Shown here piece by piece: positions 1 to 64,000 of a stretch of 64,000 nucleotides of DNA. The stretch comes from Microbacterium marinum. Lineage in GTDB: Bacteria; Actinomycetota; Actinomycetes; Actinomycetales; Microbacteriaceae. Numbering within the stretch: the stretch's first letter is position 1; each line of letters starts with the position of its first letter. A model generated the notes under the pieces. The model saw nothing but the letters and a program-made list of their open reading frames with translations. It had not been told where the DNA came from and did no database searches. Made by a program: the position numbers and the translations under genes. The stretch lies in NCBI RefSeq assembly GCF_014204835.1, contig NZ_JACHMD010000001.1, positions 2,790,001 to 2,854,000 on the forward strand, read 5' to 3'.

Positions 1-42
1 CGCCACGCGGAGGGGATCGCGTCGCCCCCCCCACTCAATGAC

Positions 43-84
43 AGAGGCCCGGACTCACGACGTTCTGCGTGATTCCGGGCCTCT
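43..84 (-). terminator. hairpin terminator after tRNA-Tyr
   Basis: Positions 43-53 and 74-84 are perfect reverse complements, giving an 11-bp G+C-rich stem with a 20-nt loop. It starts 11 nt past the 3' end of the tRNA-Tyr gene in the direction of its transcription. No U-run follows, which is common for actinobacterial intrinsic terminators. It may also stop a gene entering from the left of the window. Confidence 0.7.
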
Positions 85-94
85 CTCGGTCGGG

Positions 95-176
95 TGGCGA
101 GTGAGGGATTCGAACCCCCGAATGCAATGCAGTCTGATTTACAGTCAGATCCCTTTGGCCGCTTGGGTAACTCGCC
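95..176 (-). tRNA. tRNA-Tyr (anticodon GTA)
   Basis: The 82-nt gene folds with a 7-bp acceptor stem (GGCGAGT at the 5' end pairing with ACTCGCC) and a T-loop GTTCGAATC. The anticodon stem TCTGA/TCAGA closes the loop CTGTAAA, so the anticodon is GTA, at 140-142 read in reverse. The length implies the long variable arm of type II tRNAs, as expected for bacterial tRNA-Tyr. The 3' CCA end is not encoded: the discriminator A is followed by CCC. It is the only tRNA gene I find in the window. Confidence 0.95.
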
Positions 177-4521: not shown

Positions 4522-4583
4522 GGGTCTTCCTTCGTACGTCGTTGTCGGATGCCGCAGCGCGGCGTGGCCCTGACGATACCACC

Positions 4584-5222: not shown

Positions 5223-5233
5223 GCGGCATCCGC

Positions 5234-5505: not shown

Positions 5506-6717
5506 GTGACCGGCTCCGCCCCGCGGCTCACACGCGGACTCGTCGTCGTCCTGGGCTTCCTTTCGGCCGTCGGCCCGTTCGCGATCGACATGTACCTCGC
5601 GTCGCTGCCGCAGATCGCCCGCGAGCTCGACGCCGCGCCCGCGACGGTGCAGCTGACGCTGACGGCGTTCCTCTTGGGCCTCGGTGTCGGCCAGCTGCTG
5701 CTCGGACCGCTCTCGGACATGTGGGGACGTCGACGGGTGCTCCTGCTCGCGACGAGCGCTTTCACCCTCACGAGCATCGCCCTCATCGCGGCGCCGACCA
5801 TCGAGGTGTTCATCGCCCTGCGGCTCGTGCAGGGACTGGCGGGAGCGGCCGGCGTCGTGATCGCCCGCGCCATCGCCGTCGACCTCAGCACGGGCCGCAC
5901 CGCGGTCCGGGCCCTCAGTCTGATCGCGACGGTCGGCGGCCTCGGCCCCCTCGTCGCTCCCCCGATCGGTGGACTGGTCGCCTCGTTCTCGGGGTGGCGC
6001 GGGGTGCTCACGGCCCTCGCGGTCATCGCCGTCCTGATGCTCGTGCTCGCCTGGCTCGTCGTGCCGGAGTCACTGCCTCGCGAGCTCCGCCACACCGGCG
6101 GGCTGCGCGCCATGCGATCGTCGTTCGCCCACTTCGTGCGGGACCCGATCTACCTCGGCTACACCGGTGCGTACGTCGCCGGGTTCGCGGGCCTGTTCGC
6201 CTACGTCGCGGCATCTCCCTTCGTCGCCCAGGTGATCCTCGGGATGCCGCCCTTCCTCTACGGCCTCGGCTTCGCCGGGGGCGGGGTCGCGCTGCTCGTC
6301 GCGAATCTGATCAACGCGACCTACGCACCGCGCATCGGACCGGAACGGATGCTGGTGGTCGGCGCCGCGCTCGGCGTCGCGTCCGCGACGGTCATGACGG
6401 TCTCGGCGGCCACCGGCATCCTGTCGATCACGCTCTTCCTCGGCTGCGCCTTCGCCACCATGGGGGCGGCGGGTCTCACGTTCGGCAATGCGAACGCGCT
6501 CGGCCTCGCCCGGGCGACGCCCCGCAACCGCGGCGCGGGCGCGGCCCTCATGGGCGCGTGCCAGTTCGCGACCGGCGCGCTCATCACCCCCGTGGTGGGC
6601 CTGTGGGGCGAGGAGACCGCGGTGCCGATGGCGTGCGTCATGCTCGTCGGCGCGCTGCTCAGCCTGACGCTCGGGATCGCCTCGAACCGCGCGAGCGCCC
6701 GATCGCACCCGTCGTGA
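5506..6717 (+). CDS. Bcr/CflA family MFS drug exporter
   Basis: A 403-residue major facilitator with about 12 membrane helices. The first helix reads GFLSAVGPFAIDMYLASLPQ, typical of the Bcr/CflA (DHA1) group, and the loop 2-3 motif A is present as GPLSDMWGRRR. These are proton-coupled exporters for bicyclomycin, chloramphenicol, sulfonamides or related drugs; the substrate is not predictable. I chose the GTG at 5506: it puts a short tail before helix one and has GGGG upstream, while the in-frame ATG at 5428 would add 26 non-conserved residues. The last 59 nt overlap the end of the convergent hydrolase gene. Confidence 0.88.
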   Translation: MTGSAPRLTRGLVVVLGFLSAVGPFAIDMYLASLPQIARELDAAPATVQLTLTAFLLGLGVGQLLLGPLSDMWGRRRVLLLATSAFTLTSIALIAAPTIEVFIALRLVQGLAGAAGVVIARAIAVDLSTGRTAVRALSLIATVGGLGPLVAPPIGGLVASFSGWRGVLTALAVIAVLMLVLAWLVVPESLPRELRHTGGLRAMRSSFAHFVRDPIYLGYTGAYVAGFAGLFAYVAASPFVAQVILGMPPFLYGLGFAGGGVALLVANLINATYAPRIGPERMLVVGAALGVASATVMTVSAATGILSITLFLGCAFATMGAAGLTFGNANALGLARATPRNRGAGAALMGACQFATGALITPVVGLWGEETAVPMACVMLVGALLSLTLGIASNRASARSHPS

Positions 6718-7684
6718 GCCACCGCTCGAGCGCACGGTAGGCCTGCTCGCGAGGACCCGGACGCGACAGGAAGAGGTCGTGGATGCCGCCCTCGATCCGC
6801 GCGAGCGTGATGTCGCGCCCGATCCGGGTGGCGGCGCGGGCGATGTCGTCGACGACGAGCACCGAGTCGCTGCCGGTCATCTCGGCATTCCACGCGAACG
6901 GATTCGTCGATGCGGTCGACAGCATCACGAGGGTCGGAACGCCCACGTCGATGCCCGCTGCCACCCGACGGTGCCCCTCGACGATCGCGGCGAGCCAGCC
7001 CGGGTGCGTCGGGAATCCGCGCTCGGGCCGCCACTCGCGCCGGTAGCCGCGGACGGGCAGCGCGCCGACCTCCGTCTGCGCGCGGGTGTAGAAGCCGAGG
7101 TCGACGACGGGGTGCGCACCCAACGGATCGACGCGCGCCCGCATCTGCACGAGGGGCGACAGCGCCTGGCGACCGAGGGTGCCGATCTGCAGCTCGAGCC
7201 ACGGGCTGTTGAGGACGAGCCCCGCGAGGCGCCCGTGGTGCCGCGATGCCCAGAGCGTGGCGGTGAGGCCGCCCGTCGAGTGCCCCATCATCACGAGCCG
7301 ACGCCGCGACGGCGCACCGTCGAGGCCGTGGCCCATCGCGTCGAGGGCCGTGGCGATGTCGGCGTCGTACACCTCGAGCGACGTCACGAAACCGGGCGTC
7401 TGCCCGGGGCGCAGGCTGCGGCCGTACTTGCGCAGATCGAGCGCGTGGAAGCGCGCTCCGTGCGACGTCCAGAAGCGGCCGAGCTCGACCTGGAAGAAGT
7501 AGTCGGACCAGCCGTGCAGATAGAGGACGTCGACGTCGCGCAGCGGCCCCGTGAGCCGCGCGATCATCGGCGGCTCGAGGCGGACGAGCGTCGCGACGAT
7601 CTCGCCCTCCTGGTCGGTGCCGAGGGGCAGCGTCAGGGACTGGAACGGACGCCCGAGGACGTCCGTCTCCCACTCGCCGCTCAT
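6659..7684 (-). CDS. alpha/beta hydrolase (serine aminopeptidase-like S33)
   Basis: A 341-residue alpha/beta hydrolase. The nucleophile elbow GHSTGG places the catalytic serine at residue 136, and LHGW near residue 56 supplies the oxyanion-hole HG. A late GGIHDLF segment probably holds the catalytic histidine. The layout fits the Hydrolase_4 (monoacylglycerol lipase / lysophospholipase) group. The ATG at 7684 lies seven bases after the ferredoxin reductase stop, so it is the last gene of the minus-strand run menG - polyprenyl synthase - fprA. Its C-terminal codons overlap the convergent MFS gene. It is too long, and has the wrong surroundings in sequence, to be called MenH. Confidence 0.85.
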   Translation of the reverse strand: MSGEWETDVLGRPFQSLTLPLGTDQEGEIVATLVRLEPPMIARLTGPLRDVDVLYLHGWSDYFFQVELGRFWTSHGARFHALDLRKYGRSLRPGQTPGFVTSLEVYDADIATALDAMGHGLDGAPSRRRLVMMGHSTGGLTATLWASRHHGRLAGLVLNSPWLELQIGTLGRQALSPLVQMRARVDPLGAHPVVDLGFYTRAQTEVGALPVRGYRREWRPERGFPTHPGWLAAIVEGHRRVAAGIDVGVPTLVMLSTASTNPFAWNAEMTGSDSVLVVDDIARAATRIGRDITLARIEGGIHDLFLSRPGPREQAYRALERWLTTGAIGRSRGSRRSRASG

Positions 7685-7691: not shown

Positions 7692-9065
7692 TCACTCCCC
7701 GCGTGAGACCCGCACCATCTCGTCGCGGTCGACGACCTTGATCCGCTCGCGCCCATGCGGTGCGCCCAGGCCGACCTCGTGCTCGTCGAGCCGGTGCCAG
7801 CCGTCGAGGTCGGTCCACGCGACCTGCCGCTCGGCGAGAAGGGCGACGACCGCCTCTTCCTCGGGCTGCTCGGGCGCCCACCACGACGCCTGGTCGTTGA
7901 TGACGTGGCGGACGGTCTCCATCGCGTCGGACTTGGTGTGGCCGATCAGACCCACCGGACCGCGCTTGATCCACCCGGTGGCGTACACGCCAGGCACGCG
8001 CTCGTTGGAGCCCTTCTCGATGACCTGACCCTCGTGGTTCGGGATCACGCCGTGGCGCTTGTCGAACGGCACGTCGGGCAGCGGGGAACCGAAGTAGCCG
8101 ATCGCGCGGTAGACCTGGCCGACGGCGACCTCTCGGATTTCGCCGGTGCCTTCGACACCACCGGAGCCGTCGGGCCGCGTGCGCTCGTAGCGGATGGCGG
8201 CCACATGGCCGGCCTCATCCTTCACGATCTCGACGGGACGGGCGTAGAAGTGCAGATGCAGGCGACGGCTTGCCTCTCCCCCGGCGTTGTTGACGCTGGG
8301 ACGCTGACGCCACGACTGCAGCACGCGGTCGATGACCATGACCTGCTTGTTCGACGCGATGGCGGTCTTCGACGCCTCGTCGTAGTCGAAGTCCTCGTCG
8401 TAGACGACCATGTCGACGTCGTTCAGCTCGCCGAGCTCGCGCAGTTCGAGTGGGGTGAACTTCACCTGAGCGGGTCCCCGACGACCGAAGACGTGGACGT
8501 CGGTGACCGGCGACGCCTTGAGCCCGTCGTAGACGTTCGCGGGGATCTCGGTGGGCAGCAGGTCGTCGGCGTGCTTGGCGAGCATGCGCGCGGCATCCAA
8601 GGCGACGTTGCCGTTGCCGAGGACCGCCACGGATGCCGCATCCAGCGGCCATTCGCGGGGGAAGTCGGGGTGACCGTCGTACCAGCTCACGAAGTCGGCG
8701 GCGCCGAACGACCCTTCGGCGTCGATGCCGGGGATGTCGAGGTCGGCGTCCTTGATCGCACCGGTGCTGAAGATGACGGCGTTGTAGTGCTTCTTCAGGT
8801 CGGCGAGGGTGATGTCCGTACCGAAGCGGACATTGCCGAAGATGCGGATGTCACCGCGGTCGAGCACGTCGCGGAGGGCATTGATGATGCCCTTGATGCG
8901 CGGGTGGTCGGGGGCGACGCCGTAGCGGACGAGACCGTAGGGCGCCGGGAGGTGGTCGAAGAGGTCGATCGACACGTCGAACTTGCGCTCCGCCTTGAGG
9001 AGGATGTCCGCCGCGTAGATGCCGGCGGGTCCTGCGCCGACGATGGCCAGCCGAAGCTTGGTCAT
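7692..9065 (-). CDS. fprA: ferredoxin/adrenodoxin-type NADP+ reductase
   Basis: A 457-residue flavoprotein of the adrenodoxin reductase / mycobacterial FprA family. The FAD-binding motif GAGPAG is at residues 10-15, and a second Rossmann motif VLGNGNVALD binds NADPH. The segment HLPAPYGLVRYGVAPDHP is diagnostic for the family. The enzyme passes electrons between NADPH and ferredoxins, for example for P450s or Fe-S assembly. It has a GAAAGGA ribosome site. The gene follows the polyprenyl diphosphate synthase gene after 61 nt, so co-transcription is likely but not certain. Confidence 0.95.
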   Translation of the reverse strand: MTKLRLAIVGAGPAGIYAADILLKAERKFDVSIDLFDHLPAPYGLVRYGVAPDHPRIKGIINALRDVLDRGDIRIFGNVRFGTDITLADLKKHYNAVIFSTGAIKDADLDIPGIDAEGSFGAADFVSWYDGHPDFPREWPLDAASVAVLGNGNVALDAARMLAKHADDLLPTEIPANVYDGLKASPVTDVHVFGRRGPAQVKFTPLELRELGELNDVDMVVYDEDFDYDEASKTAIASNKQVMVIDRVLQSWRQRPSVNNAGGEASRRLHLHFYARPVEIVKDEAGHVAAIRYERTRPDGSGGVEGTGEIREVAVGQVYRAIGYFGSPLPDVPFDKRHGVIPNHEGQVIEKGSNERVPGVYATGWIKRGPVGLIGHTKSDAMETVRHVINDQASWWAPEQPEEEAVVALLAERQVAWTDLDGWHRLDEHEVGLGAPHGRERIKVVDRDEMVRVSRGE

Positions 9066-10188: not shown

Positions 10189-10961
10189 TCCTCCAGCGTA
10201 CCCGTCCGGCCCTCGGCCCGGTCGCCCGCAGACTCCCCCTTGCGTGCGCGGTGAAGCGCCACGATGCCGAAGGTCAGATCGCGATACTCGACCGAGTCCC
10301 AGCCCGCCCCTCGGATGCGCGCGGCGAGCGCGGCCTGGTCGGGCCAATCGCGGATCGATTCGTTGAGGTAGTCGTAGGCGTCGGCGTTCGTGCTGACGGC
10401 CTTCGCGACGATCGGCAGGACCCGATCGTTGTAGAACGAGTAGAGGGTCCGCATGAGTGGAGCCTGCGGGTGCGAGAACTCGCACACGACGAGCGTCCCG
10501 CCGGGCTTCGTCACGCGGAGCATCTCGCCCAGGGCCTTGTCGGGGTCATTGACGTTGCGAAGGCCGAACGAGATCGTCACGGTGTCGAACTCGTCGTCGG
10601 CGAACGGCAGAGCCGTGGCATCCGCTTCGGTGAAGCTCAGGTTCGGGATGCCGCCGTGGCGACGCCGCCCCTCGGCGATCATGCCGGCGGAGAAGTCCGC
10701 GGCGACCACGTCGGCGCCCGAACGGGCGAGCGCGACAGAGCTCGCACCGGTCCCCGCGGCGAGGTCGAGGATCCGCTGGCCCGGCCGGGGCGCGATGGCA
10801 CGCGTCGCCGCGACCCGCCACAGCTTGTCGTTGCCGAGGCTGAGGACGGTGTTGGTGCGGTCGTACCCGGCGGCGACCTCGTCGAACATGCCGCTCACGC
10901 GCGACGGATCCTTGCCGAGATCGGCACGGGTGGAGGCGGCGCGGGTCGGTTCGTCGGTCAC
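10185..10961 (-). CDS. menG: demethylmenaquinone methyltransferase
   Basis: A 258-residue class I SAM methyltransferase of the UbiE/MenG family. The SAM motif LDLAAGTG spans about residues 65-72, and the family signatures [16 protein letters not shown] and GLRNVNDP are present. It performs the last step of menaquinone synthesis, C-methylation of demethylmenaquinol. The GTG start lies six nucleotides after a TAGGCT -10 element. It heads the run to the polyprenyl synthase and is divergent from menF, whose promoter carries the same hexamer at the same distance. Confidence 0.95.
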
Positions 10962-11036: not shown

Positions 11037-12287
11037 GTGACCTCGTCTGCGCTCGGCATCCCGCGGCTGCGTGCCGTCACCCGGCGGATCGAACCGGTCG
11101 ATGAACCGCTGATCTACGCCTCCCCCGAAGATCCCACCGTGTGGTCGCGCCGCGGTGACCTTCTCATCGGCGTCGGGCGCGCGGCCGAACTCCCCGCCGG
11201 CGCAGCCGCCGCGCAGTGGTGGCGCGAGGTCACCGCCGCATCGGAGATCGACGACAAGGTCCGCCTCGCCGGGTCGGGCCTCGTCGCCTTCGGCACGCTG
11301 CCCTTCGACCCGGCGAACAGCTCGGCGAGCGCCGCCCTCGCCGTGCCGCGCATGATCATCGGGCGCCGCGGGGACACGAGCTGGGTCACCCACGTCTTCG
11401 TCGAAGGCGAACCGGAACGCGACGAGCCTCAGGCGATCGCGTTCGGCCCGCACTGGTCGGCCACCGTCGGCCCCGGGGCCTGCACGCCCGACGGCTACCA
11501 GGGCGAGGTGCGCGCCGGCCTCGAGGCGATCGCGTCCGGCGAGGTCGCGAAGGTCGTCCTCGCCCGCGACCTGGTGGGCACCGTTCCCGCCGGCTCCGAC
11601 CTGCGCCGGCTCGTCCGTGCGCTGGCATCGGCGTACCCCGACACGTGGACCTTCGCCGTCGACGGCACCATCGGGGCGAGCCCCGAGACCCTCGTGACCG
11701 TGTCGGGAGGCACCGTCACCGCACGGGTCCTGGCGGGAACCGCCGCCCGCGGCGCCGATGCGGACGCCGACACCGCGGCATCCGTCGCCCTCGCGACGAG
11801 CCCCAAGGACCTCGACGAACACCGGTACGCCGTGCAGAGTGTGCTGACGGCGTTGCGCGAGCACACGACCGCACTGGTCGCCGAGCCCGAACCGTTCATG
11901 CTGAAGCTGCCGAATGTCTGGCACCTCGCGACGGATGTCGAGGGCAGCCTGTCGGGGCGGGCGTCCTCGCTCGACCTCGTCGCGGTGCTGCACCCGACGG
12001 CGGCCGTCGCCGGCACACCGACGCAGGCAGCGCTCGAGGCCATCCGCCGGATCGAGCCGTTCGATCGGGGCCGCTATGCCGGACCCGTCGGCTGGATCGA
12101 TGCGCAGGGCGACGGCGAGTGGGCCATCGCGCTGCGCTGCGCGCAGTTCGACGTGAACGGGGCGTCCGACGACGGCATCCCGTTCGTCGCACATGCCGGC
12201 GCGGGCATCGTCGCCGGCAGCGACCCCGAGACCGAGATGCTCGAGACGCGGGTCAAGTTCCGACCGATCGTCGACGCGCTGGCCTGA
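11037..12287 (+). CDS. menF: isochorismate synthase
   Basis: A 416-residue chorismate-utilising enzyme. The conserved C-terminal half shows GEVAKVVLARDL, GASPETLV, LAGTAARG, HPTAAVAGTP and the late GAGIVAGSDPE segment, all typical of the MenF/EntC/DhbC family, with magnesium-binding glutamates in the last blocks. It converts chorismate to isochorismate, the first committed step to menaquinone. No siderophore genes are nearby, and the other men genes are, so MenF rather than a siderophore synthase is favoured. The GTG start follows a TAGGCT -10 element by six nucleotides. Confidence 0.92.
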   Translation: MTSSALGIPRLRAVTRRIEPVDEPLIYASPEDPTVWSRRGDLLIGVGRAAELPAGAAAAQWWREVTAASEIDDKVRLAGSGLVAFGTLPFDPANSSASAALAVPRMIIGRRGDTSWVTHVFVEGEPERDEPQAIAFGPHWSATVGPGACTPDGYQGEVRAGLEAIASGEVAKVVLARDLVGTVPAGSDLRRLVRALASAYPDTWTFAVDGTIGASPETLVTVSGGTVTARVLAGTAARGADADADTAASVALATSPKDLDEHRYAVQSVLTALREHTTALVAEPEPFMLKLPNVWHLATDVEGSLSGRASSLDLVAVLHPTAAVAGTPTQAALEAIRRIEPFDRGRYAGPVGWIDAQGDGEWAIALRCAQFDVNGASDDGIPFVAHAGAGIVAGSDPETEMLETRVKFRPIVDALA

Positions 12288-18858: not shown

Positions 18859-18991
18859 CGCTCGGGGCAGGTCGCGCCCTCGGGCATCGTTCGCCGGGAA
18901 CTGTTCACCCGACGACCGGCGACCGCGGTGCCGTGACCGTGCGAAGCTTGTAGAGCGGCTTTCACCCGACGGATGCCGCGGAAGGACCGCC

Positions 18992-20308: not shown

Positions 20309-20473
20309 CAGGAGCGTGCGGCGGAGTCCGGGCTGCGGCGCGTGCTGCTCCCGCACGGATGCCGCGGGCCCAGGGCTCGTGGTACGGAGTGACGCGCTGT
20401 CAGGCCTCGGCGACCTCAGAAGGGTGCTCGGCCGGTGTCGTGGGTGGGTGCGGCAGGGGTGAAGGCGACGGCC

Positions 20474-48216: not shown

Positions 48217-48690
48217 TCAGGGGCGCCTGCGCGCCTCGAAGAATGAGGTGAGTCGTGCCGCGGCCTCTTCCGCTCGCAGTCCGCCCACGACTTCGGCGCG
48301 GTGCGGCAGACGGCGATCGCGCAGCAGGTCGTGCATCGACCCGGCGGCGCCGGCCTTCTCGTCCCACGCGCCGAACACGACGCGGCCCACCCGCGCCTGC
48401 AGGATCGCCCCCGCACACATGACGCACGGCTCGAGCGTCACGACGAGGGTGCAGTGCTCCAGGTTCCAGGATCCGAGAGCGGATGCCGCGGCCCGCAGCG
48501 CCACGATCTCGGCGTGCGCGAGCGGATCGCCGTCGCGCTCGCGGAGGTTCCGCCCCTCCCCGAGGACGGCACCGTCTTCGGCGATGACGACCGCCCCGAC
48601 CGGGACGTCCGCGTGGTGCGCGGCCTCGTCGGCGAGCGCCAGCGCCCGCCGCATGGCCGCGTCGTCGGCGGGGCGGACAGGCAGACTCAC
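48217..48690 (-). CDS. tadA: tRNA-specific adenosine deaminase
   Basis: A 157-residue zinc deaminase. The motif HAE is at 59-61 and PCVMC at 88-92, giving the His-Cys-Cys zinc site and catalytic Glu. It converts A34 to inosine in tRNA-Arg(ACG). The GTG at 48690 is favoured by a TACGCT -10 six nucleotides upstream; upstream codons are antisense to upp. The gene is divergent from upp. Confidence 0.92.
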   Translation of the reverse strand: MSLPVRPADDAAMRRALALADEAAHHADVPVGAVVIAEDGAVLGEGRNLRERDGDPLAHAEIVALRAAASALGSWNLEHCTLVVTLEPCVMCAGAILQARVGRVVFGAWDEKAGAAGSMHDLLRDRRLPHRAEVVGGLRAEEAAARLTSFFEARRRP

Positions 48691-49354: not shown

Positions 49355-49412
49355 CGCGACGCCGCGCGGCGCGGCATCCGTGCGGCGTGATCGATGGCAA
49401 CGGATCCAACGG

Positions 49413-52400: not shown

Positions 52401-52901
52401 GGAGCGCGGGACGCCGAGTCGGTCGAGCTGATCGACGTATGCGGCCAGCTGCATGAGCGCGGTGACTCTCGCGCGGCGGGCGAGCTTGGTGTCCTGCACG
52501 ATCCAGCTGCCGTCGTCATCGCGCACCAGGAAGTCGGCGAATCCCACGAACTCGTCGGTCGCGAACGCCGCCTGGTAGACGACGGCGACATCGGGGTCGG
52601 CGAGGGCCGCATCCGTGGCGGCGACCGCGGCGGCGAGGGCTGCGGCATCCGACGAACGCGTCTCGGGGATCTCCACGACCCGGCCGGGGAAGCGTGCGCG
52701 GTACTCCTCCAAGACCCGGAGTTCGTGCTGGGTGCCCAGGCGCCCCGCTCGAGCGAGGGTCAGGTCTTCGGGGTCATCGACCGCCGGAAGTCTGCCGAGC
52801 TTCGCGTCGATCGCTCGGAGCCACGCGAACTCGCACTCGGCTGCCGCCTTGAGGTCGCTCGCGCTCCAGACGATCCGGCCGTCGTCGTCGATGTATCGCA
52901 T
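49413..52901 (-). CDS. TM0106-family RecB-like nuclease fused to SF1 helicase
   Basis: A 1162-residue protein in three parts. Residues 1-240 are a RecB/Cas4-like nuclease: D123, then QDTK with D137 and K139, bracketed by C23 and C230-x2-C233-x2-C236, which fits a Cas4/AddB-style iron-sulfur clasp. Residues about 330-560 are a ribonuclease H-like domain (FFDFEGDPLY; later YNRYDC). Residues about 780-1160 are a superfamily 1 (Dna2/Upf1-like) helicase: Walker A GPPGTGKT near 789, DEAG near 898, GDPQQLP, and motif VI-like RINVAVSRA. It probably processes DNA ends or flaps in repair; its biological role is not established. GGAAGGG stands before the ATG. It is convergent with upp. Confidence 0.9.
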   Translation of the reverse strand: MRYIDDDGRIVWSASDLKAAAECEFAWLRAIDAKLGRLPAVDDPEDLTLARAGRLGTQHELRVLEEYRARFPGRVVEIPETRSSDAAALAAAVAATDAALADPDVAVVYQAAFATDEFVGFADFLVRDDDGSWIVQDTKLARRARVTALMQLAAYVDQLDRLGVPRSDRVQLLLGDGSVSEHAVRDLLPVFGLRRDRLRALIADRDVPAGAAGASLAWGDERGALRVVACGRCATCDLEVIAQRDLLLVAGMRPVQRDRLRAAGVVTIDALAAAREAPPRMSWDTFAGLRTQARLQLESPAGGVAPVASGVPVAVPTFEVVFPKALGALPRPSRGDLFFDFEGDPLYTEGAGANGVTNWGIDYLFGWVDLDEQYSALWAHSFAEEKAALEQFLDFVALRRQTHPDLHIYHYAPYEPSHLLAMAARHGVGEAAVDRLLAEGVFVDLYPIVRRALRVGSRSYSIKKLEPLYMGDEVRTSDVQRGDDSIVRYVEARTLQDAGDAASAQEIFDDLADYNRYDCVSTRRLRDWLVDRAREANLVPSREPDAGEVVYEPSHRAEALSRLAADAGDETAAEALRLGAAAIDYYPRESKTFWATHFLRLREPVSVWEDTRDVVVVDRDRCRVVTDWHLPEGARVHRRIVEIRGDLAPGTRLVEGQSPYAVYEVPAPFPIETSPRWIHAARTVKVVDVLDDGVVIEENAYQGFTWQELPVALTPQAPPMAGSQQAAIDEWADAVLAAGGDLPADPASDLLLRRPPRLAGGAALPRTGDDIDDIAAALVALQDSALSVQGPPGTGKTYVGSHVVARLVRERGFRVGVVAQSHNVVEHMLDRIVDAGVPKAQVAKAPKGPATGAESFTVIAKNGMAPYIAEQQAGFVVGGTAWDLTHAGRIGRRSLDLLVIDEAGQFSLASTIAVSMAASRVLLLGDPQQLPQVSQGTHPEPVDTSALGWVMDGASVIPPERGYFLAQTRRMRPEVAGPVSELSYAGRLAAHPDTSVRTLDGVASGVITVPMAHTRNATQSPEEAERVVELVRGLRGRAWNDGTGVRPLEDRDIIVVTPYNAQQVLVEEALAAAGFADAPVGTVDRFQGQEAAVVIVSLAASSGRDAPRGLEFLLLQNRINVAVSRAMHTAYVVYSTGLLDDLPRTPEGVARLSAFARLVGAA

Positions 52902-52983: not shown

Positions 52984-55062
52984 GTGAGCGAGGACCTGCC
53001 CTTCGAGAACCCGTACCGGCACGGCTATGCGCGCGTGGCGGCCTGCACCGTCCCAGTCGCGATCGCCGACCCGCTGAGCAACGCCGACGCCGTGCTCGCC
53101 GCCGCCGCCGAGTGCGACGCCGAGGGAGTCGCCGTCGCGGTGTTCCCCGAGCTCTGCCTCACCGGCTACGCGATCGAAGACCTCGTCATGCAGGACCCCG
53201 TCCTGGATGCCACGCTCACGGCCATCGAGCGGATCGTCGCGGCATCCGCCGACCTCGCCCCCGTCCTCGTCGTCGGTGCGCCCCTCCACGTCGAGTCCCG
53301 GCTCTACAACTGCGCCGTGGTGATCCATCGCGGGAGCATCCTCGGCGTCGCGCCGAAATCGCACCTGCCCACCTACCGGGAGTTCTACGAGGCGCGCTGG
53401 TATGCGCGCGGCGGTGACAACGCGCCCGACGCGATCGAGCTCCTCGGCACGCCCGTTCCGTTCGGTGCGAACCTGCTGTTCCGCGCGACGGACGTCCCGG
53501 GGCTCGTCGTCCACGCCGAGATCTGCGAAGACATGTGGGTGCCGGTGCCGCCGTCCTCCCGCGCAGCCCTCGCCGGCGCCACCGTGCTCCTCAACCTCTC
53601 CGGAAGCCCCATCACGATCGCGCGTGCCGAGGACCGCCGCGCCCTCGTCCAGTCCCAGTCTCAGCGCTGTCTCGCGGCGTACGTCTTCGCCGCCGCCGGT
53701 CAGGGCGAGTCCACGAACGACGTGTCGTGGGACGGGCAGACGATGATCTACGAGGGCGGCACCCTCCTTGCCGAGACGGAGCGCTTCCCCGACGGCCCGC
53801 GGATCGCCGTCGCCGACATCGACCTCGATCGGCTCCGACAGGACCGCCTCCGTCAGGGCACCTTCGACGACAACAGGCGTGAGGTGGGCACGTGGCCCGA
53901 CGTGATCGAGTTCACCCTCGAGCCCGCGGCATCCGTCACCGGTCTTCGTCGCCCGCTCGACCGCTTCCCCTTCGTGCCCGACGACCCCGCCCGCCTCGAC
54001 CTCGACTGCTACGAAGCGTTCAACATCCAGGTGTCGGGACTGGAGCAGCGTCTGCGCGCCATCGGGCAGCCGAAGCCCGTGATCGGCGTGTCCGGCGGAC
54101 TCGACTCGACGCACGCGCTGCTGGTCGTCGCGCGGGCGATGGACCGGATGGGCCGCCCGCGCAGCGACATCCTCGCCTACACGATGCCCGGGTTCGCCAC
54201 CGGCGACCACACCAAATCGAATGCCATCGCGCTGGCCGAGGCCATCGGCGCCACGATCGAGACGATCGACATCCGCCCGATGGCCACCGAGATCCTCAAG
54301 GGGATCGATCACCCCTTCGGTCGCGGCGAGCCCGTGTACGACGTCACGTTCGAGAACGTGCAGGCCGGTGCGCGCACCGACTTCCTGTTCCGGCTCGCGA
54401 ACCAGCGTGGCGGCATCGTGATCGGCACGTCCGACCTGTCCGAGCTCGCCCTCGGATGGGCGACCTACGGCGTGGGCGACCACATGGCGCACTACGGGGT
54501 CAACGCCGGCGTCCCCAAGACCCTCATCCAGCACCTCATCCGCTGGGTCATCGCCCACAGCGACGAGTCGGGCACGACCCTCACCGATCGCGCCAAAGAG
54601 GTCCTCCAGGCCGTGCTCGACACCGAGATCAGCCCCGAGCTGGTGCCGGCCGGCGAAGACGGCGAGGTGCAGTCCACCGAAGCGACCATCGGACCCTACG
54701 CGCTGCACGACTTCACGCTCTTCCACGTGCTCCGCTACGGCCTGCGGCCGTCGAAGATCGCGTTCCTGGCCGAGCAGGCGTGGCACGATGCGGATGCGGG
54801 CGCGTGGCCGGCCGGTTTCCCGAGCGACGTTCGCTACGCCTACGACCGCGAGACCGTCGTGCGGTGGCTGCGAGTCTTCCTGCAGCGGTACTTCGGGTTC
54901 GCCCAGTTCAAGCGCAGCGCCGTCCCGAACGCGCCGAAGGTCTCCCCCGCCGGGTCGCTGTCGCCGCGTGGGGACTGGCGTGCCCCCTCGGACGGGAACG
55001 CCCGCGCGTGGCTCGCCGAGCTCGACGCGGCCCTCGCCGCGCCGGGAGCGGCGTCGGCCTAG
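52984..55062 (+). CDS. nadE: glutamine-dependent NAD+ synthetase
   Basis: A 692-residue two-domain enzyme. The N-terminal nitrilase-type glutaminase has the Glu-Lys-Cys triad at E56, K125 and C181. The C-terminal synthetase has the ATP pyrophosphatase loop SGGLDS at 370-375. Ammonia is channelled between them to amidate deamido-NAD. Length matches the mycobacterial enzyme. The TAG stop shares its bases with the stop of the convergent PPTase-like gene. Confidence 0.96.
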   Translation: MSEDLPFENPYRHGYARVAACTVPVAIADPLSNADAVLAAAAECDAEGVAVAVFPELCLTGYAIEDLVMQDPVLDATLTAIERIVAASADLAPVLVVGAPLHVESRLYNCAVVIHRGSILGVAPKSHLPTYREFYEARWYARGGDNAPDAIELLGTPVPFGANLLFRATDVPGLVVHAEICEDMWVPVPPSSRAALAGATVLLNLSGSPITIARAEDRRALVQSQSQRCLAAYVFAAAGQGESTNDVSWDGQTMIYEGGTLLAETERFPDGPRIAVADIDLDRLRQDRLRQGTFDDNRREVGTWPDVIEFTLEPAASVTGLRRPLDRFPFVPDDPARLDLDCYEAFNIQVSGLEQRLRAIGQPKPVIGVSGGLDSTHALLVVARAMDRMGRPRSDILAYTMPGFATGDHTKSNAIALAEAIGATIETIDIRPMATEILKGIDHPFGRGEPVYDVTFENVQAGARTDFLFRLANQRGGIVIGTSDLSELALGWATYGVGDHMAHYGVNAGVPKTLIQHLIRWVIAHSDESGTTLTDRAKEVLQAVLDTEISPELVPAGEDGEVQSTEATIGPYALHDFTLFHVLRYGLRPSKIAFLAEQAWHDADAGAWPAGFPSDVRYAYDRETVVRWLRVFLQRYFGFAQFKRSAVPNAPKVSPAGSLSPRGDWRAPSDGNARAWLAELDAALAAPGAASA

Positions 55063-55774: not shown

Positions 55775-56332
55775 GTGAAGCTCCTGGTCGCTGCCCTCGA
55801 ATCCGAACTCGTCGCGTTCCCCGCCGAACTCGAAGGGTTCGCGCGACTGGTGACCGGGCCGGGCAAGCTGCAGGCGACCTATGCGCTCACGCGTGCCCTC
55901 GATGCCGACGTGTATGACGAGATCCTGGTCGTCGGCACCGCCGGCGCAGTGGATGCCGCGACGGTGGGCGTGCACGATGTGACGGCCGCCATCCAGCACG
56001 ATGTCTCCGACGTCGACGGCATCGCGGGTCAGCACGTGTCGCTTCCTCCGATCGTGACGATCGCGGGCCGCGAGGGGGCGACGATCGCGACCGGCGATCA
56101 CTTCGTCGACGATGCCGCGACGGTGGCCGCGATCCGCGAGTTGGGCGGCTCGCTCGTCGATATGGAGACGTACGCCTACATCTGGGTGGCGCAGCAGTTC
56201 GGCATCCCGATCCGTGTGCTGAAGGCGGTCTCGGACAACGCGCAGGACGATGCGATCACCGACTGGCGCGCCGCCGTGGCCGCGTGCAGCGTGCAGTTGC
56301 GGCAGCGGGTCGGGGACCTCTACGACGTGTGA
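55775..56332 (+). CDS. nucleosidase / nucleoside phosphorylase-like protein
   Basis: A 185-residue protein of the MTA/SAH nucleosidase-purine phosphorylase superfamily, shorter than the usual 230. Recognisable parts are VTGPGKLQATYAL (phosphate or glycine-rich loop), VVGTAGAV, the substrate segment LVDMETYAYIWVAQQFGIP with the ME pair that binds ribose, and VSDNAQDD with the catalytic Asp. The base specificity is unknown. The GTG start follows GACAAT by six nucleotides. Confidence 0.85.
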   Translation: MKLLVAALESELVAFPAELEGFARLVTGPGKLQATYALTRALDADVYDEILVVGTAGAVDAATVGVHDVTAAIQHDVSDVDGIAGQHVSLPPIVTIAGREGATIATGDHFVDDAATVAAIRELGGSLVDMETYAYIWVAQQFGIPIRVLKAVSDNAQDDAITDWRAAVAACSVQLRQRVGDLYDV

Positions 56333-57155: not shown

Positions 57156-58325
57156 TCAGCGTGCTCGGCGGTCGTAAGCCGCCTCGAAGGCGCCGATGAG
57201 AGGGACCTTAGGTTGGTCGACGTCCACCAGGAGCGTGCGCGCGACAGCGAGCAGACCGAACGCACGGTCGCCGTCACCCAGCTGGGTCGCGGCGAGAGCG
57301 TGGCCCAGCAGGTGCACCGCCGACAGTGCACCCGCGCGCGACTCGTGGCCCCACCGCTCCCATGCCGCGTCCGCCAATGCCCACACGTGACCGGCATCAC
57401 GCAGGTGCGCGGTGAGGGTCGCGCTGGCGACGATGTGGCCGAGAAAGGCCGCGAGGTCGTCGACGGGGTCGCCCCGGCCGGCGGTGTCGACATCGATGAG
57501 CCCACTGATCCGTCCGGTGCCGGCTTCGAGGAAGAGCTGCCCGAGATGCAGGTCACCATGGATGACGACCCGCGCGGCATCCGGCGCATCGTCTCCGATC
57601 GACGCGGCGATCGAGACGATATCGTCCGCGTGCTCTGGAAGTGCCCGCACAAGCCGCTCGGCGTACCAGTCCCGCCGGGAGAGGAGGGAGGTGCGCGCCC
57701 TCCCGGGCAGCTCTGCGACGGCCAGTCGCTCACGGAGCTCATCAATCTGGTCGAGGAGCGCGAGCGGATGCCACGGGGCGTCGGTCGCGGCGATACCCTC
57801 GGCGCCATCGAGCACCAGCAGCCCCTCGGGTGACCACCCGCGAACGGCGGGCACGGGAAGGCCCGCTGTGCGGAGAGCGGCGTGCACCTCGACGATGCGC
57901 TCCACGCGCGACGGGCGGACCACCTTGACCCACGCATGGTCGCCCGCGGGCCCAGCGACCCGCAGAACTGCTCGACGGCCGGGGCGATACGCGATCATCT
58001 CCGGCGACCCCGTCGCCGCGATGCCGATGCGCGCGAGCAGTTCCTGCGCTGCATGCCCGAAGGCCGCGGGCACCAGCGCAGGCAGATGAGGATCGGCCGG
58101 ATGCATCCAGACACGGGCGACACCCTCGAGCGCGAGCCCGGTTTCGGCGGCGACGTCGAGGAGCGAGGTGTCGACGTAGGCGATCGCCTCCGACTCTGCG
58201 GGAATCCGGTAGCCCGCCACGACGCCGCGACCCAGCGGCTCGCGGCTGATCACTGTGAGCGTGGTGGGGTCGAGGTCGAGCGCATCGCCGAGGAGGTCGG
58301 CTTCGCAATCGCGGACATCGGACAC
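57156..58325 (-). CDS. aminoglycoside phosphotransferase-like kinase
   Basis: A 389-residue APH/choline-kinase-fold protein. The catalytic motif HGDLHLGQ lies near residue 255, and the metal motif GLIDVDTAG follows about 18 residues later. The N-terminal third (about 1-110) has no clear match. The ligand is unknown; such kinases act on antibiotics, sugars or amino alcohols. The GTG start is at the head of the frame after the divergent histidine kinase promoter region. It ends 46 nt upstream of the start of the hexapeptide-repeat gene, on the same strand. Confidence 0.85.
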   Translation of the reverse strand: MSDVRDCEADLLGDALDLDPTTLTVISREPLGRGVVAGYRIPAESEAIAYVDTSLLDVAAETGLALEGVARVWMHPADPHLPALVPAAFGHAAQELLARIGIAATGSPEMIAYRPGRRAVLRVAGPAGDHAWVKVVRPSRVERIVEVHAALRTAGLPVPAVRGWSPEGLLVLDGAEGIAATDAPWHPLALLDQIDELRERLAVAELPGRARTSLLSRRDWYAERLVRALPEHADDIVSIAASIGDDAPDAARVVIHGDLHLGQLFLEAGTGRISGLIDVDTAGRGDPVDDLAAFLGHIVASATLTAHLRDAGHVWALADAAWERWGHESRAGALSAVHLLGHALAATQLGDGDRAFGLLAVARTLLVDVDQPKVPLIGAFEAAYDRRAR

Positions 58326-58415: not shown

Positions 58416-59912
58416 ATGGATCAGCCCGCACACCACCGCCGGCGCTTCGCCGTGTCGGTACGGACGCGCATCGTGACGGCGATCACGCTTGTCGCGGCCC
58501 TCGGGCTGGCGTCGGTGGGCATCACCGTGTTCTTCGTCGAGCGGGCCAACATCCTCCGCAACATCGACGATCGCCTGCACGACAACCTCGACTCCGCCCG
58601 CTTCATCGTCGAGAACGGGGCGGACGGCCGCGGTACCTGGGACGCCGCAGACTCCGCCCTCTACGACGTCGTGCAGCGGATGAGCCCCGATGACAATACG
58701 GGCGCGCTCGGCCTCATCGGCGGGCGCGCGGTGATGAAGCCGGGTATCCGACTCGATGTGGACCTGACGTCCGCGCCGGGGTTCGCAGCGGACGCCGCCG
58801 GGGCCGTCGCAGAAGGCGATCCCATCATCGGGTCGTATCTCGCGGACGGCGTCGCGTGGCGCTATCTGGCCGCCCCTATCGCGGTCGATGGCGCTACCGC
58901 CGCCGAAGAGACGGTGTTCGTCCTCGCCTACGACATCGACGCGGAACTGGCTGAGCTCGGTCATGCCGGCCAGGCCTACCTCTGGGCAGCCGGTGGCGCA
59001 CTGCTGGTGGTCACCGCCGTCGCCTTCATCGTGTCGACCCGTCTCCTGCGCCCGCTGCGACGCATGCGTGAGACGGCCGAACGCGTGTCGGGCCAATCGC
59101 TCGATGAGCGGCTTCCCATCGACGGCCGCGACGATGTGGCCGATCTCGCCGAGACGATCAACGCCATGCTCGACCGCCTCGATGCGGCGCTCGACTCGCA
59201 GCGGCAGCTGCTGAACGACGTCGGACACGAACTGAAAACGCCGATCACGATCGTTCGCGGCAACCTGGAGGTCATGGATCCGAACGACCCCGCGGATGCC
59301 GTGTCCTCACGCGACCTCGCCGTCGACGAGCTCGATCGCATGGCAGGGCTCGTGCAGGACCTCGCGAGCGCGGCATCCCTGCATGGTCCCTCACCGATCA
59401 AGACGATGCCGGTGGACGCCGGGGACCTCGTGCAGCAGGTCGTTCGAAAGGCGTCGTCGCTCGCGGGAGCGTCGGTCATCCCTGGGAGTATCGCCGACGT
59501 CGTGATCGAAGCGGATGCCGATCGGTTGACGCAGGCGCTGCTGCAGCTGGCGCAGAACGCTGTGACGCACGGCCGCGGCGACATCGTGATCGGCAGCCGC
59601 GTCGTGCCGGGCGCCGTGGAATTCTGGGTCCGCGACCATGGCGCCGGTGTTCCCGACGAGGCGAAGCCGCTCGTGTTCGAACGGTTCCATCGAGGCGACG
59701 AGAACGGTGGCAGCGGCCTCGGGCTGAACATCGTGCAGGTCATCGCGCGTGCCCACGGTGGAAATGCGCGGGTCGCAGATGCGGCGGGAGGCGGTGCGGT
59801 CTTCCTCATCGCGATCCCGCACGAGGGCGCAGAACCCGTCCCGACCGACGCCGCGCTCCCCGCGGTGGCACCGGCGCCACCGCTCCCCCCGCTGGTCCGA
59901 GAGGATGCGTGA
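58416..59912 (+). CDS. sensor histidine kinase
   Basis: A 498-residue membrane kinase. Two helices (about 21-43 and 188-210) bracket an extracytoplasmic sensor domain of about 145 residues with no family I recognise. HAMP follows, then HisKA with the phosphorylated His271 in DVGHELKTP, and HATPase_c with N-box LLQLAQNAVTHG, G1 DHGAGVP and G2 GSGLGLNIV. The Ala/Pro tail after residue 475 is not conserved. It overlaps the upstream reach of the response regulator gene and should form an operon with it. Confidence 0.94.
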   Translation: MDQPAHHRRRFAVSVRTRIVTAITLVAALGLASVGITVFFVERANILRNIDDRLHDNLDSARFIVENGADGRGTWDAADSALYDVVQRMSPDDNTGALGLIGGRAVMKPGIRLDVDLTSAPGFAADAAGAVAEGDPIIGSYLADGVAWRYLAAPIAVDGATAAEETVFVLAYDIDAELAELGHAGQAYLWAAGGALLVVTAVAFIVSTRLLRPLRRMRETAERVSGQSLDERLPIDGRDDVADLAETINAMLDRLDAALDSQRQLLNDVGHELKTPITIVRGNLEVMDPNDPADAVSSRDLAVDELDRMAGLVQDLASAASLHGPSPIKTMPVDAGDLVQQVVRKASSLAGASVIPGSIADVVIEADADRLTQALLQLAQNAVTHGRGDIVIGSRVVPGAVEFWVRDHGAGVPDEAKPLVFERFHRGDENGGSGLGLNIVQVIARAHGGNARVADAAGGGAVFLIAIPHEGAEPVPTDAALPAVAPAPPLPPLVREDA

Positions 59913-59913
59913 C

Positions 59914-60573: not shown

Positions 60574-60580
60574 CGTTCGC

Positions 60581-63571
60581 TCAGCCCGCGACGACCGCGT
60601 CCTGGAGGATGCGGCTCGGCCCATCGGACGATGCCGCCACGACGATCTGCGCGGGGATCTGCTCCTTCATCGTCTCGACGTGACTGATGACGCCGACCAC
60701 GCGACCGCCGGCGCGCAGTTCGTCGAGCGTCCGCATGGCCAGGTCGAGGGTCTCGGGGTCGAGCGATCCGAAGCCTTCGTCGATGAAGAGCGTGTCCAGT
60801 CGGATGCCGCCGGCGCGGGAGGTGACGACCTCGGCGAGCCCGAGCGCCAGAGCCAACGATGCGAGGAACGTCTCGCCTCCGGAGAGGGACTGCGGCGATC
60901 GCTGCCGTCCGGTGTGCGCGTCGCGGACCTCGATGCCGAGGCCCGATGCGGCGCCCCTGGCCTGGCGGGCATCGGAGTGATGCAGGGTGTACCGGCCCGA
61001 CGACATCTCCTGGAGCCGCAGGTTCGCCGCGCAGACGATCTCCTCGAGCTCGGCGGCGAGGACGAAGGTTTCGAGGTCCATCTTCATGGTGTTCGGCGCG
61101 CGTCCCGCGACGGTGTCGGCCAGCCTCAGGGTGGCCGCCGCTTCGTCGGCGAGGCCGGCGATCGCGGCCGTCGCCTCGTCGATGCGGAGGAGGAGGTCGC
61201 GCAGGCCCGACGCCGCCGACGCCGCGGATGCGGCAGCGGCGATCGCGGCGTCGCGCACCGCTTCGGCCTCTGCGACGGCTGCGGCGGAGGCTGCGATCTC
61301 GCCGTCACCGACCGTCATGTCGACCGTCTGCAGTTCGAGCTCGAGGGCTCGCGACCGCGCGGCGGCGAGGGCGGCGGCGTGGTCTGCGAGGCGTGCGTCC
61401 AGCGCGTCGCGCTCGTCGGCGCTCAACATCGCCTCGCGTGCCGCGTCGGCATCGGCGAACGACGCGGCGGCCAGACGTGCGTCGAGGTCGGCGGCGGCTT
61501 CGCGGTGTCCGCGGCGACGCTCCGCGGCGGATCGTCTCGCGTCGATCAGAGCGCGGGCGCGGGCGCGGTGCGCGTCGTCGGCCGCGATCCTGTCACGCAC
61601 AGAGGGGTGGGCGCCGCGCGCCGACTCCACGTCGCGGCGGATCGCGGTGCGCTCGGCATCGGCGACGGCCTGCTCCTCGCGGGCCGACGACAGTCGCTCT
61701 GTCAGAGCGGCGGCTTCACCGCGCGCGGCGGTCTCGAGCTCGTCGAGCCCTGCCAACGAGGTCGCGAGCGCCTCGAGACGGCCGGCGGCCGCCGTGGCGT
61801 CGGCGAGGTCGCTCTCCCGTGCTGCCAATTCGGTCGAGACGGCCGCGACGCTGTGACCGGCCGCGGTCGCCGCCGCGACGGCGAGAGCCTCACGTGCGGC
61901 CCCGGCGGCCGACCCCGCGACGCGCTCGGCCGCGGTCGCGGCGTCACGCGCCGCTTCGGCCGCCGTGAGGTCGTCGTCGCTCACCGGTTCGTCAGCGTGG
62001 ACGGCCGGGGCGGGGTGCTCGACGGCGCCGCAGACCGGACACGGCTCACCGGGATCGAGGGATGCCGCGAGCTCCCCCGCGTACCCCCGGAGGCGCCGCT
62101 GGAGCAGATCCCTCACTCGTCGGACCGCCGCCTCGGATGCCGCGCTCGCCTCGGCGTACGCCGCTTCTGCGGCGGCAGCTTCGGGGGTGAGACGTTCGAG
62201 GGTCCGGGCGGACTCGAGGCGTGACGCCAGCGCCGCGCGCGTTGCCGCGAGGTCGTCGACCCGGGACGCGGCGACGCGGGATGCGGCGAGCTCCTCGGTG
62301 ACGGCGGACCTCCGCGGCGGCACTGCGGCGATCTGGGCTTCGATCTCGGCGAGCGCCGCCACCATGGCCGCGAGCTCCGCAGCGCGCTGGGCGGCGGTCT
62401 CGTCGAGGTCGCGCAGCCGACGCTCCGCATCGGCCGCTGCCTGCGAACGGGTGATGTCCGCGGTGAGCGTCTCGATCCGGGCGTCGAGGTCGTCTTCCGG
62501 ATCGCCCCCGTGCTCTATCCAGTCGCCGAGGGCTGCCGTGTGCTCCCGCTCTGCCGTCGCGAGCGCTGTCGCCGCACGGTCGACCGCGTCGAGCGCCGCG
62601 CGCACGTCCTCGGCGCGCCGGGCCTCCTTGAGCCGCGCCCGAAGGAGATCGACGGCAGGAGCCTCTGTCTCGCGCGCGGCGAGTTCAGCGCGTGCGGCAC
62701 CGAGTTCGGCCAGCAGTGCGGCCCGTTCGGTGAGCTGCGCATGTCGCGTGGCAGCCGCCTCCGCCGCTGCGACCGCGGCATCCCGTTCGTGACCGCGCGC
62801 CTCCACGCGGTAGGCGGCGCGGTCGACCGCGCGCTCGAGGAGGGCGCCACGGGTCGCGATGTCGTCTTCGGCCGGAGGCGCATCGTCGGTTCCGAGCGCG
62901 GCCGCCGCGACAGCCTGTTCGGCGACGTCGAGGAGGGTGCGCGCGCGTGCCCCACCCTCATCCAGTCGGGAGCGGGCGTCACGCCGACGCTCGTCGAGAG
63001 CGTCCTTATACTCCTCGAACCGACGGGTCCCGAAAAGGGTCCGGAGCAGCTGCTGTCGTTCGGTGTTGCCCGCGAGGAGGAAGCGGGAGAACTTGTTCTG
63101 GGCGAGGAGGATCACCTGCTGGAACTGGGTGGCGGTCAGGCCCAGCACCTCATCGAGAAGCTGACCGACGTCGCGGAGCTTCGCCGCGCGCCCCACCCAT
63201 CGCCCGTCGACCCACTCGTCGAGTTCGGCTCGCGCGGGCTCGACCGTCATGCCGCCGCCGCGCTTGGCGGGCCGCTCGTATTCGGGCGCCCTCGTGACCC
63301 GCCACCGCGCTCCGCCGACGGTGAATTCCAGGCGCACCTCGGTCGGATCGGTGAGGAAGCTGTGATCGCTGCGCAGCCGGCGGTCGCCGCCGTCGTACCG
63401 CGGAACCGACCCGTAGAGCGCGAAGCTCACCCCGTCGAGGATGCTCGACTTGCCGGCGCCGGTCCGGCCCGTGATCAGGAACAGCCCGTCGCCGTCGAAC
63501 GCATCGAAGTCGACCGTCTGCGTCTCGCGGAAGGGACCGAACCCCGTCAGGTCGAGACGATGCAGCTTCAC
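60581..63571 (-). CDS. sbcC: SbcC/Rad50-type exonuclease subunit
   Basis: A 996-residue SMC-like ATPase. Walker A GRTGAGKS is at 35-42, long Ala/Arg-rich coiled coils occupy about 180-480 and 540-800, and the zinc hook CPVC lies near residue 510. The C-terminal half has the ABC signature LSGGETFLASLALALGLA and Walker B LFIDEGFGSLD. With SbcD it cuts hairpins and blocked DNA ends. The GTG start overlaps the sbcD stop (GTGA). Confidence 0.95.
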   Translation of the reverse strand: MKLHRLDLTGFGPFRETQTVDFDAFDGDGLFLITGRTGAGKSSILDGVSFALYGSVPRYDGGDRRLRSDHSFLTDPTEVRLEFTVGGARWRVTRAPEYERPAKRGGGMTVEPARAELDEWVDGRWVGRAAKLRDVGQLLDEVLGLTATQFQQVILLAQNKFSRFLLAGNTERQQLLRTLFGTRRFEEYKDALDERRRDARSRLDEGGARARTLLDVAEQAVAAAALGTDDAPPAEDDIATRGALLERAVDRAAYRVEARGHERDAAVAAAEAAATRHAQLTERAALLAELGAARAELAARETEAPAVDLLRARLKEARRAEDVRAALDAVDRAATALATAEREHTAALGDWIEHGGDPEDDLDARIETLTADITRSQAAADAERRLRDLDETAAQRAAELAAMVAALAEIEAQIAAVPPRRSAVTEELAASRVAASRVDDLAATRAALASRLESARTLERLTPEAAAAEAAYAEASAASEAAVRRVRDLLQRRLRGYAGELAASLDPGEPCPVCGAVEHPAPAVHADEPVSDDDLTAAEAARDAATAAERVAGSAAGAAREALAVAAATAAGHSVAAVSTELAARESDLADATAAAGRLEALATSLAGLDELETAARGEAAALTERLSSAREEQAVADAERTAIRRDVESARGAHPSVRDRIAADDAHRARARALIDARRSAAERRRGHREAAADLDARLAAASFADADAAREAMLSADERDALDARLADHAAALAAARSRALELELQTVDMTVGDGEIAASAAAVAEAEAVRDAAIAAAASAASAASGLRDLLLRIDEATAAIAGLADEAAATLRLADTVAGRAPNTMKMDLETFVLAAELEEIVCAANLRLQEMSSGRYTLHHSDARQARGAASGLGIEVRDAHTGRQRSPQSLSGGETFLASLALALGLAEVVTSRAGGIRLDTLFIDEGFGSLDPETLDLAMRTLDELRAGGRVVGVISHVETMKEQIPAQIVVAASSDGPSRILQDAVVAG

Positions 63572-64000
63572 GCGAGGGCCTCCGCGCGCACCCGCTGCTC
63601 GAGCACGTCCTCCAAGAGGGCGTCCTCGCGATCCGACGCCCCCTCCCCCTCGCGGACGTGGACGAGGAAGGCCTCGACGAGCTCGCGGTCGGTGCGCGCA
63701 GCGCGCACCCGCTCGACGTACGTCGTGCGGGCTTCCTCCCGCGCCGCAGCGGGCGTGTGCGCCACGCGGGCACAGAACGGGAACCGCTCCTGCAGGCGAC
63801 GCAGCGGGTCGGGCTCGGGCAGGTCGTCGGTGTACTCCACGCACACCCAGGCCTCGCGGTGCTCCGCGTACGCCTCATCGGAGAGGATGTCGGCGAAAGC
63901 GCCGCGAAGGGTGACCAGGCGCCGCGGAATCGGGAGGTCCACCCACTCGACGGCGGAAAGACCCGCGGCATCCAGGTCGACGATCCACGCACCCCGAGGC
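63568..64000 (-). CDS. sbcD: SbcD exonuclease subunit, 5' part outside the window
   Basis: The last 143 codons of SbcD. The visible part starts in the capping region, PRGAWIVDLDAAGLSAVEW, and runs through IPRRLVTLRGAFADIL to a charged end. The phosphodiesterase motifs lie beyond base 64000. The frame is open to the window edge, so the GTG at 63942 is not the true start. It is coupled to sbcC. Confidence 0.9.
   Translation of the reverse strand, partial: PRGAWIVDLDAAGLSAVEWVDLPIPRRLVTLRGAFADILSDEAYAEHREAWVCVEYTDDLPEPDPLRRLQERFPFCARVAHTPAAAREEARTTYVERVRAARTDRELVEAFLVHVREGEGASDREDALLEDVLEQRVRAEALA

Follow-up and report, generated by a model that had tools for sequence, protein, structure and literature searches.

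A hyperabundant, dialect-forming word in Microbacterium marinum that resembles a DNA uptake sequence

The 64,000-nucleotide stretch analysed here (the window; positions 2790001-2854000 of the single-contig, 3,124,335-base genome of Microbacterium marinum, G000) is scattered with the 9-mer GGATGCCGC, referred to below as the word, in a pattern that resembles the DNA uptake sequences (DUS) and uptake signal sequences (USS) of other bacteria. Counted on both strands, the window holds 52 copies (25 on the plus and 27 on the minus strand; Table 1) and 95 copies (46 and 49) of its core 7-mer, GGATGCC. An earlier note on this DNA had come close with about 24 and 26 copies and about 85 cores, and its base-composition expectations of roughly 2 and 15 are borne out (1.9 and 15.2). 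Markov models of order 1-3 predict 2.5-4.2 copies of the 9-mer and 14.7-22.3 of the 7-mer, and an order-4 model 9.4 and 46.8, the higher values arising because that model absorbs part of the word signal itself. Seven of the eight positions that the note had placed between genes (1146, 4547, 5223, 13215, 18971, 20357 and 49371) do lie outside called genes, 1146 and 13215 with the 7-mer only (GGATGCCAC); the eighth, 22251, falls inside a called gene.

The abundance extends across the genome. Its 3.12 Mb contain 2154 copies (1077 on each strand; 0.69 per kb), compared with 32 and 44 copies of the reversed word, used as a control; a 9-12-base word present in hundreds to thousands of copies per genome is typical of DUS and USS. 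A 1.264-Mb sample comprising the window and 60 stretches of 20 kb holds 865 copies, against expectations of 45-79 (Markov order 1-3) and 162 (order 4). Genes called in this sample with a simple purpose-built caller (1197 genes, 88% coding) contain 740 copies. Four synonymous or codon-pair shuffles, preserving the protein together with codon use, junction dinucleotides, the two flanking bases on each side or the codon to the left, gave means of 92, 100, 154 and 187 copies and a maximum of 193. Outside the called genes, 116 copies occur in 148.8 kb where 4.2-7.9 are expected, an excess of 26- to 28-fold under order-1 and order-2 models and 15-fold under order 3; the density is 0.78 per kb in intergenic DNA and 0.68 per kb overall. 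The earlier note's view that codon preference cannot explain the word is upheld, and of the two outcomes it had named as undoing that view, a shuffle that reproduces the count and intergenic copies at chance level, neither was seen. Within genes, 366 copies are sense and 374 antisense, 326 of the 366 sense copies being read in the GAT GCC frame. Wherever origin and terminus were placed among the options tried, the 61 stretches revealed no replichore bias (P = 0.89), the largest strand asymmetry being 0.064 compared with a mean of 0.083 for random assignments. Occurrence in both orientations, within and between genes and independently of codon use is shared with DUS and USS, whereas the leading- or coding-strand bias of a Chi-like signal was absent from the sample.

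With the background corrected for codon phase, the surroundings of GGATGCC favour C at -1, A or G at -3, G at +7, C at +8 and G at +9, giving an extended form of about C-GGATGCC-G-C-G, and a weak preference reaches +21 (T is scarce at +16/+17 and C favoured at +20/+21). Copies of GGATGCCGC altered at one of positions 0-6 number 0.48 to 2.25 times those expected, the scarcest being GCATGCCGC (0.48), GGATGCAGC (0.52) and others at 0.64-0.70. Enrichment is seen for A at +7 (6.1 times) and for every other base at +8 (4.0-5.0 times), which points to a reader that is strict on GGATGCC and looser beyond. Intergenic copies of the core also form pairs: 27 inverted pairs lie within 60 bp, where random placement gave a mean of 8.0 and a maximum of 16 in 200 trials, and there are 0 direct pairs (null mean 7.7). 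Inverted pairs are densest in convergent spacers (5.5 per 10 kb), followed by tandem (1.9) and divergent (0.7) ones; 24 of the 27 follow at least one gene, the other three lying in divergent spacers, and 19 of these 24 fall within 40 bases of a gene end. Judged by this location downstream of genes, they appear to occupy positions where terminators would lie, as do the terminator-associated inverted pairs of DUS and USS. Also enriched intergenically in the sample are CCAGTCTA / CCAGCCTA, at 7.8 and 8.6 times the expected number (12 and 20 copies), which are perhaps -10 promoter elements.

Table 1. Copies of the 9-mer GGATGCCGC in the window, with strand
Positions	Strand	Remark
4547..4555	+	outside called genes
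5223..5231	-	outside called genes
6242..6250	+	
6781..6789	+	
8590..8598	-	
8631..8639	+	
10646..10654	+	
11775..11783	-	
14429..14437	+	overlaps 14436..14444 copy, 16-bp palindrome
14436..14444	-	second half of 16-bp palindrome with 14429..14437
17023..17031	-	
17765..17773	+	
18971..18979	+	outside called genes
20357..20365	+	outside called genes
20513..20521	-	outside called genes
22251..22259	+	inside called gene 22192-23280, start uncertain
22588..22596	+	
23050..23058	-	
25102..25110	+	
25189..25197	-	
26220..26228	+	
26975..26983	-	
27596..27604	-	
28384..28392	-	
29421..29429	-	
30314..30322	-	
32249..32257	-	
33784..33792	+	
35883..35891	+	
36022..36030	-	
37253..37261	-	
38162..38170	+	
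39922..39930	+	
41065..41073	-	
41675..41683	+	
42652..42660	-	
43571..43579	+	
46194..46202	-	
48481..48489	+	
49371..49379	-	outside called genes
51393..51401	+	
52642..52650	-	
53239..53247	-	
53926..53934	-	
55951..55959	+	
57574..57582	-	
59370..59378	-	
60802..60810	+	
62060..62068	+	
62135..62143	+	
62775..62783	-	
63965..63973	-	

Among the genes of the window, two on the minus strand encode an SbcC-like protein (60581-63571) and a protein that combines a TM0106-type RecB-like nuclease part with helicase-like matches (49413-52901). The polyprenyl-synthetase gene of the window has its nearest matches, among 80 named loci, in three Microbacterium records (71-75% identity), in a comparison from which records very close to the window may be missing.

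Comparison with related genera, which the earlier note had named as a check, reveals an excess restricted to the family, with dialects within Microbacterium and in Frigoribacterium. All 59 genomes of the genus contain the word, from 120 copies (in a 44%-complete genome) to 2595, and in 50 of them it exceeds five times the reversed-word control, nine falling below. Counts across 120 genomes of the family, representing 85 genera, lie between 8 and 1980 if G000, with its 2154, is set aside. An order-wide set of 10 genomes of Microbacteriaceae and 139 of 19 other families, for which genome sizes were rounded, gave at most about 64 copies per Mb in the other families, compared with about 690 in G000. 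A few genomes of one of these families (f4) reach 3-7 times a low reversed-word control, in small absolute numbers (94 vs 13 in G242). In this order-wide comparison, the large excess is confined to Microbacteriaceae.

Four of the low-count members of the genus were sampled over 120-160 kb each (G050, G043, G057 and G032; G026, G035, G038, G039 and G040 were left out), and all four carry a related word sharing (C)GGAT. The dialect of G050 is GGATGCTGC, with 606 and 564 copies on the two strands genome-wide, and that of G032 is CGGATGGCC (52 copies, 8 after shuffling). G043 and G057 use CGGATCC, with 294 and 214 copies compared with 92 and 70 after shuffling; its density is 1.3-2.1 per kb in these two and 0.09-0.37 in genomes without that dialect. 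In G008, GGATGCC is followed by R and then by T instead of C at +8, and mixed C and T forms occur in G022, G033, G042 and G054. Beyond the genus, GGAGGCGCG was found in three Frigoribacterium loci and in G093, of another genus, and weaker hints came from one 21-kb locus each in Pseudoclavibacter (GGATGCGG) and a Leifsonia metagenome-assembled genome (MAG; GGATGCCCG). Dialects in related species, built around a conserved part, are a hallmark of DUS and USS as well. Six pooled Streptomyces loci (126 kb), used as a control, yielded no related word, the strongest 7-mer being CCGTACG (95 vs 44).

Several other words were encountered in passing. Those over-represented in L173-L174 (G103) and L159-L160 (G066), GCGTATCGA / GCTACTCGA and GTTTCGAGA, are probably interspersed repeats and not dialects. 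A 21-kb locus of a Propionibacteriales MAG (L107) holds 29 copies of ACGACCGGC and 14 of CGGCAACAC, where 1.7 and 0.2 are expected. The Microbacterium phage Min1 (L264, 46 kb) lacks the 9-mer and holds 16 copies of the 7-mer, counts that prove little, as its host may use another word. Its 28 copies of CGGATCC (0.61 per kb) place it between the genomes without that dialect and G057/G043.

Sites in the window were aligned to five relatives (76-80% identity) and, as a small set, to G043 (74%). In G015, G056 and G018, GGATGCC was retained at 41 of 75, 31 of 65 and 24 of 48 aligned sites (48-55%), compared with 22-27% for control words of the same composition. One-mismatch forms stood at 2-11% of sites, compared with 33-36% for controls; the site in these three relatives therefore tends to be either whole or clearly gone. 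An uptake drive would predict this pattern, and strong selection on binding would predict likewise. Retention was low in G008 (10 of 62; control 0.20), G050 (3 of 49; control 0.20) and G043 (0 of 12; control 0.16), and one-mismatch forms in G050 were at the control rate (0.31 vs 0.32). The flanks of aligned sites show ordinary identity between relatives. A mobile repeat resembling repetitive extragenic palindromes was rejected because the sites are mostly genic, their flank preferences are weak and flank identity is ordinary.

Copy counts among the 61 stretches vary beyond chance (dispersion 2.4), and word density follows G+C content (Spearman 0.72). Three stretches, with G+C of 0.655-0.665, are significantly word-poor. 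Ten of the larger proteins of the poor stretches, chosen by hand, include a Mutator transposase (in one stretch), oxidoreductases, a hydrolase, a Na+/H+ antiporter and a UvrA-like ATPase, and when nine proteins from two of these stretches were scanned against PHROGs, no clear phage structural gene emerged. An origin as acquired DNA fits the word-poor stretches, without being proven by them.

Candidate uptake machinery is encoded in G000. Besides a ComEC-type protein (767 aa) and a ComEA-type one near holA, it includes a Tad-type locus that combines a TadA-family ATPase with a T2SSF protein, a small DUF4244 protein that we take to be an Flp-like pilin, a TadE-type minor pilin and an Rv3654c-like protein whose score falls just short of its cut-off. 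The ComEC and ComEA Pfam domains score above their cut-offs. Possession of DNA-uptake machinery, expected of a DUS or USS host, is here non-discriminating. The low-count genomes do encode ComEC, and its loss was therefore rejected as a reason for their low counts. A PilB-like ATPase, with a T2SSE match below 1e-130, occurs sporadically, in 13 of the 59 genus genomes (e.g. G008:C1:549118-550275), where weaker T2SSE matches of Tad type stand alongside it; a type IVa pilus of this kind was set aside as word reader, no link with word number being visible by eye across the 59 genomes. The actinobacterium Micrococcus luteus, as described in PMC6370729, has comEA and comEC, and its transformation needs Flp/Tad-type pili.

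We therefore favour, with moderate confidence, the interpretation that the word is a DUS-like self-recognition watermark for natural transformation. It shares every tested defining sequence feature of DNA uptake sequences, and it is the dialects of related species that led us to judge an uptake sequence the best fit. We infer a surface DNA receptor, most plausibly a minor pilin of the Tad-type pilus or a ComEA-type protein, that would favour double-stranded DNA in which the word is present. Once imported by the pilus together with ComEA/ComEC, such DNA would recombine with the chromosome, and this uptake bias would act as a drive by which alleles with a perfect word spread, so that words would accumulate where a protein or terminator tolerates them and remain scarce in newly acquired DNA. 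Among known uptake words, the USS of Haemophilus has a weaker downstream flank and a density similar to that of the word. The USS of Pasteurellaceae shares with it a nine-base core (PMC3630211) and divergent dialects (PMC12616744), and differs in that its core is unrelated in sequence and the flank signal in G000 is weak. The DUS of Neisseriaceae, for which eight dialects and the features compared here are described in PMC3630211, is likewise a short word present in thousands of copies per genome, in genes and spacers, with terminator-linked inverted pairs. It differs in that the present host is a high-G+C actinobacterium with Tad-type pilus genes in place of the ComP/type IV pilus of Neisseria.

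Several observations weigh against an uptake sequence. Single-mismatch copies at core positions 0-6 show no enrichment in G000, a further difference from DUS. By the shuffle method, no such word was detected in Curtobacterium (four loci, 84 kb), Rathayibacter (one locus, 19 kb) or G109 and G103 (40 kb each), nor, by a simpler count, in two loci of Naasia or in single loci of Amnibacterium and a Microbacterium MAG (L063), of 12-21 kb. In G000 the NCBIfam models for ComEC and ComEA give scores that lie below their cut-offs or just at them. Whichever word they carry, 118 of the 120 genomes of the family and 58 of the 59 of the genus encode ComEC, which, being near universal, does not discriminate and provides permissive evidence only. 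All 12 genomes compared encode a TadE-type minor pilin; over 12 sequences its variation tracks kinship no less than dialect and is uninformative as to a dialect reader. Finally, retention in G008 and G050 is at or below control, which a change of dialect predicts, and any loss would too.

That the word is the target of a protein acting in chromosome maintenance or recombination, either as a nucleoid-protein site or as a non-polar Chi-like anti-nuclease signal, and is selected at thousands of places, is in our judgement unlikely. Hyperabundance and scarcity in acquired DNA would look identical under such selection, and the sites of the three close relatives are indeed kept about twice as often as controls. 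What speaks against it is that the word lacks a leading- or coding-strand bias, unlike Escherichia coli Chi or the FtsK-orienting polar sequences (KOPS), that close inverted pairs follow gene ends, and that the word changes within a genus, which is hard to envisage for a housekeeping protein, since thousands of its sites would have to change. Chi, KOPS and the architecture-imparting sequences are, like the word, frequent short words in bacterial chromosomes; they are strand-biased, whereas the word is not, and the sense/antisense and replichore tests leave a polar signal of this type unsupported, including the Chi-like signal suggested in the earlier note. Another of the note's suggestions, a mutational footprint, is disfavoured, in Vsr-like or other form, because no one-mismatch neighbour is emptied at core positions 0-6; its nucleoid-protein site and methylation site are among the less probable alternatives weighed here. 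Its recognition of a codon-independent, genome-wide signal stands, and a DNA uptake sequence was not among its candidates. A purely statistical origin, in codon, codon-pair or amino-acid preference at high G+C or in mutational bias, is hardly credible: order-4 models do absorb part of the excess, and density does rise with G+C, but related high-G+C families lack the excess, no single neighbour is emptied, and codon, codon-pair and dinucleotide explanations were rejected on the shuffled and intergenic counts.

Methylation offers another route, which we regard as improbable, whereby an orphan adenine methyltransferase would mark the word and repair, replication or uptake would favour marked sites. 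A PF01555 methyltransferase is encoded in 12 of 12 Microbacterium genomes tested. In the two of the 12 that were read, G000 (L262:968-1825 = G000:C1:769768-770625) and G043 (L263), its gene follows one that we name lipoate-ligase-like from our reading of the sequence itself. No nuclease gene was noticed in the 2.8 kb read around the G000 gene, and the best solved relative of the enzyme is M.RsrI (E 8.5e-28). The methyltransferase may mark the shared half GGAT, and precedents exist in the highly iterated palindrome HIP1 of cyanobacteria and in Campylobacter, C. jejuni recognising methylated DNA during uptake (PMC8468864). However, the G000 and G043 enzymes are nearly identical in their central and C-terminal parts, differing mainly near the N-terminus, despite the words being GGATGCC and CGGATCC; the methyltransferase is thus no obvious dialect reader. 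The word is moreover asymmetric, and PF00145, the other methylase family covered, occurs in only 7 of the 12 genomes (with two matches in G000). HIP1 resembles the word in being hyperabundant, limited to one group and hosted alongside orphan methyltransferases, and is a single palindrome (GCGATCGC), the same in all cases described in PMC4390886, whereas the core GGATGCC is asymmetric, as are the words of most species here, and changes between species within the genus.

No published description of the word or of an actinobacterial uptake sequence was found among the matches listed, bioRxiv and most subscription papers lying outside the search, and no literature on Microbacterium uptake sequences or natural-competence motifs of Microbacteriaceae was found. 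Even with another function, a word that changes within a genus at roughly one to two per kb needs a specific reader, of which no published description appeared among the matches listed. Uptake words have so far been established in two Gram-negative families. We hold in even balance the broader proposal that Microbacteriaceae use a multi-dialect uptake watermark, probably read by the Tad pilus, and that dialect shifts form barriers to gene exchange between Microbacterium species. If the word is an uptake sequence, self-selective natural transformation would extend beyond those two families, and surface recognition of DNA sequence would be a trait of a high-G+C Gram-positive group. The dialects would then let the receptor be found by co-variation, as PMC12616744 describes for ComN, and whether such words originate by drive or by benefit would become testable in a genus of many species.

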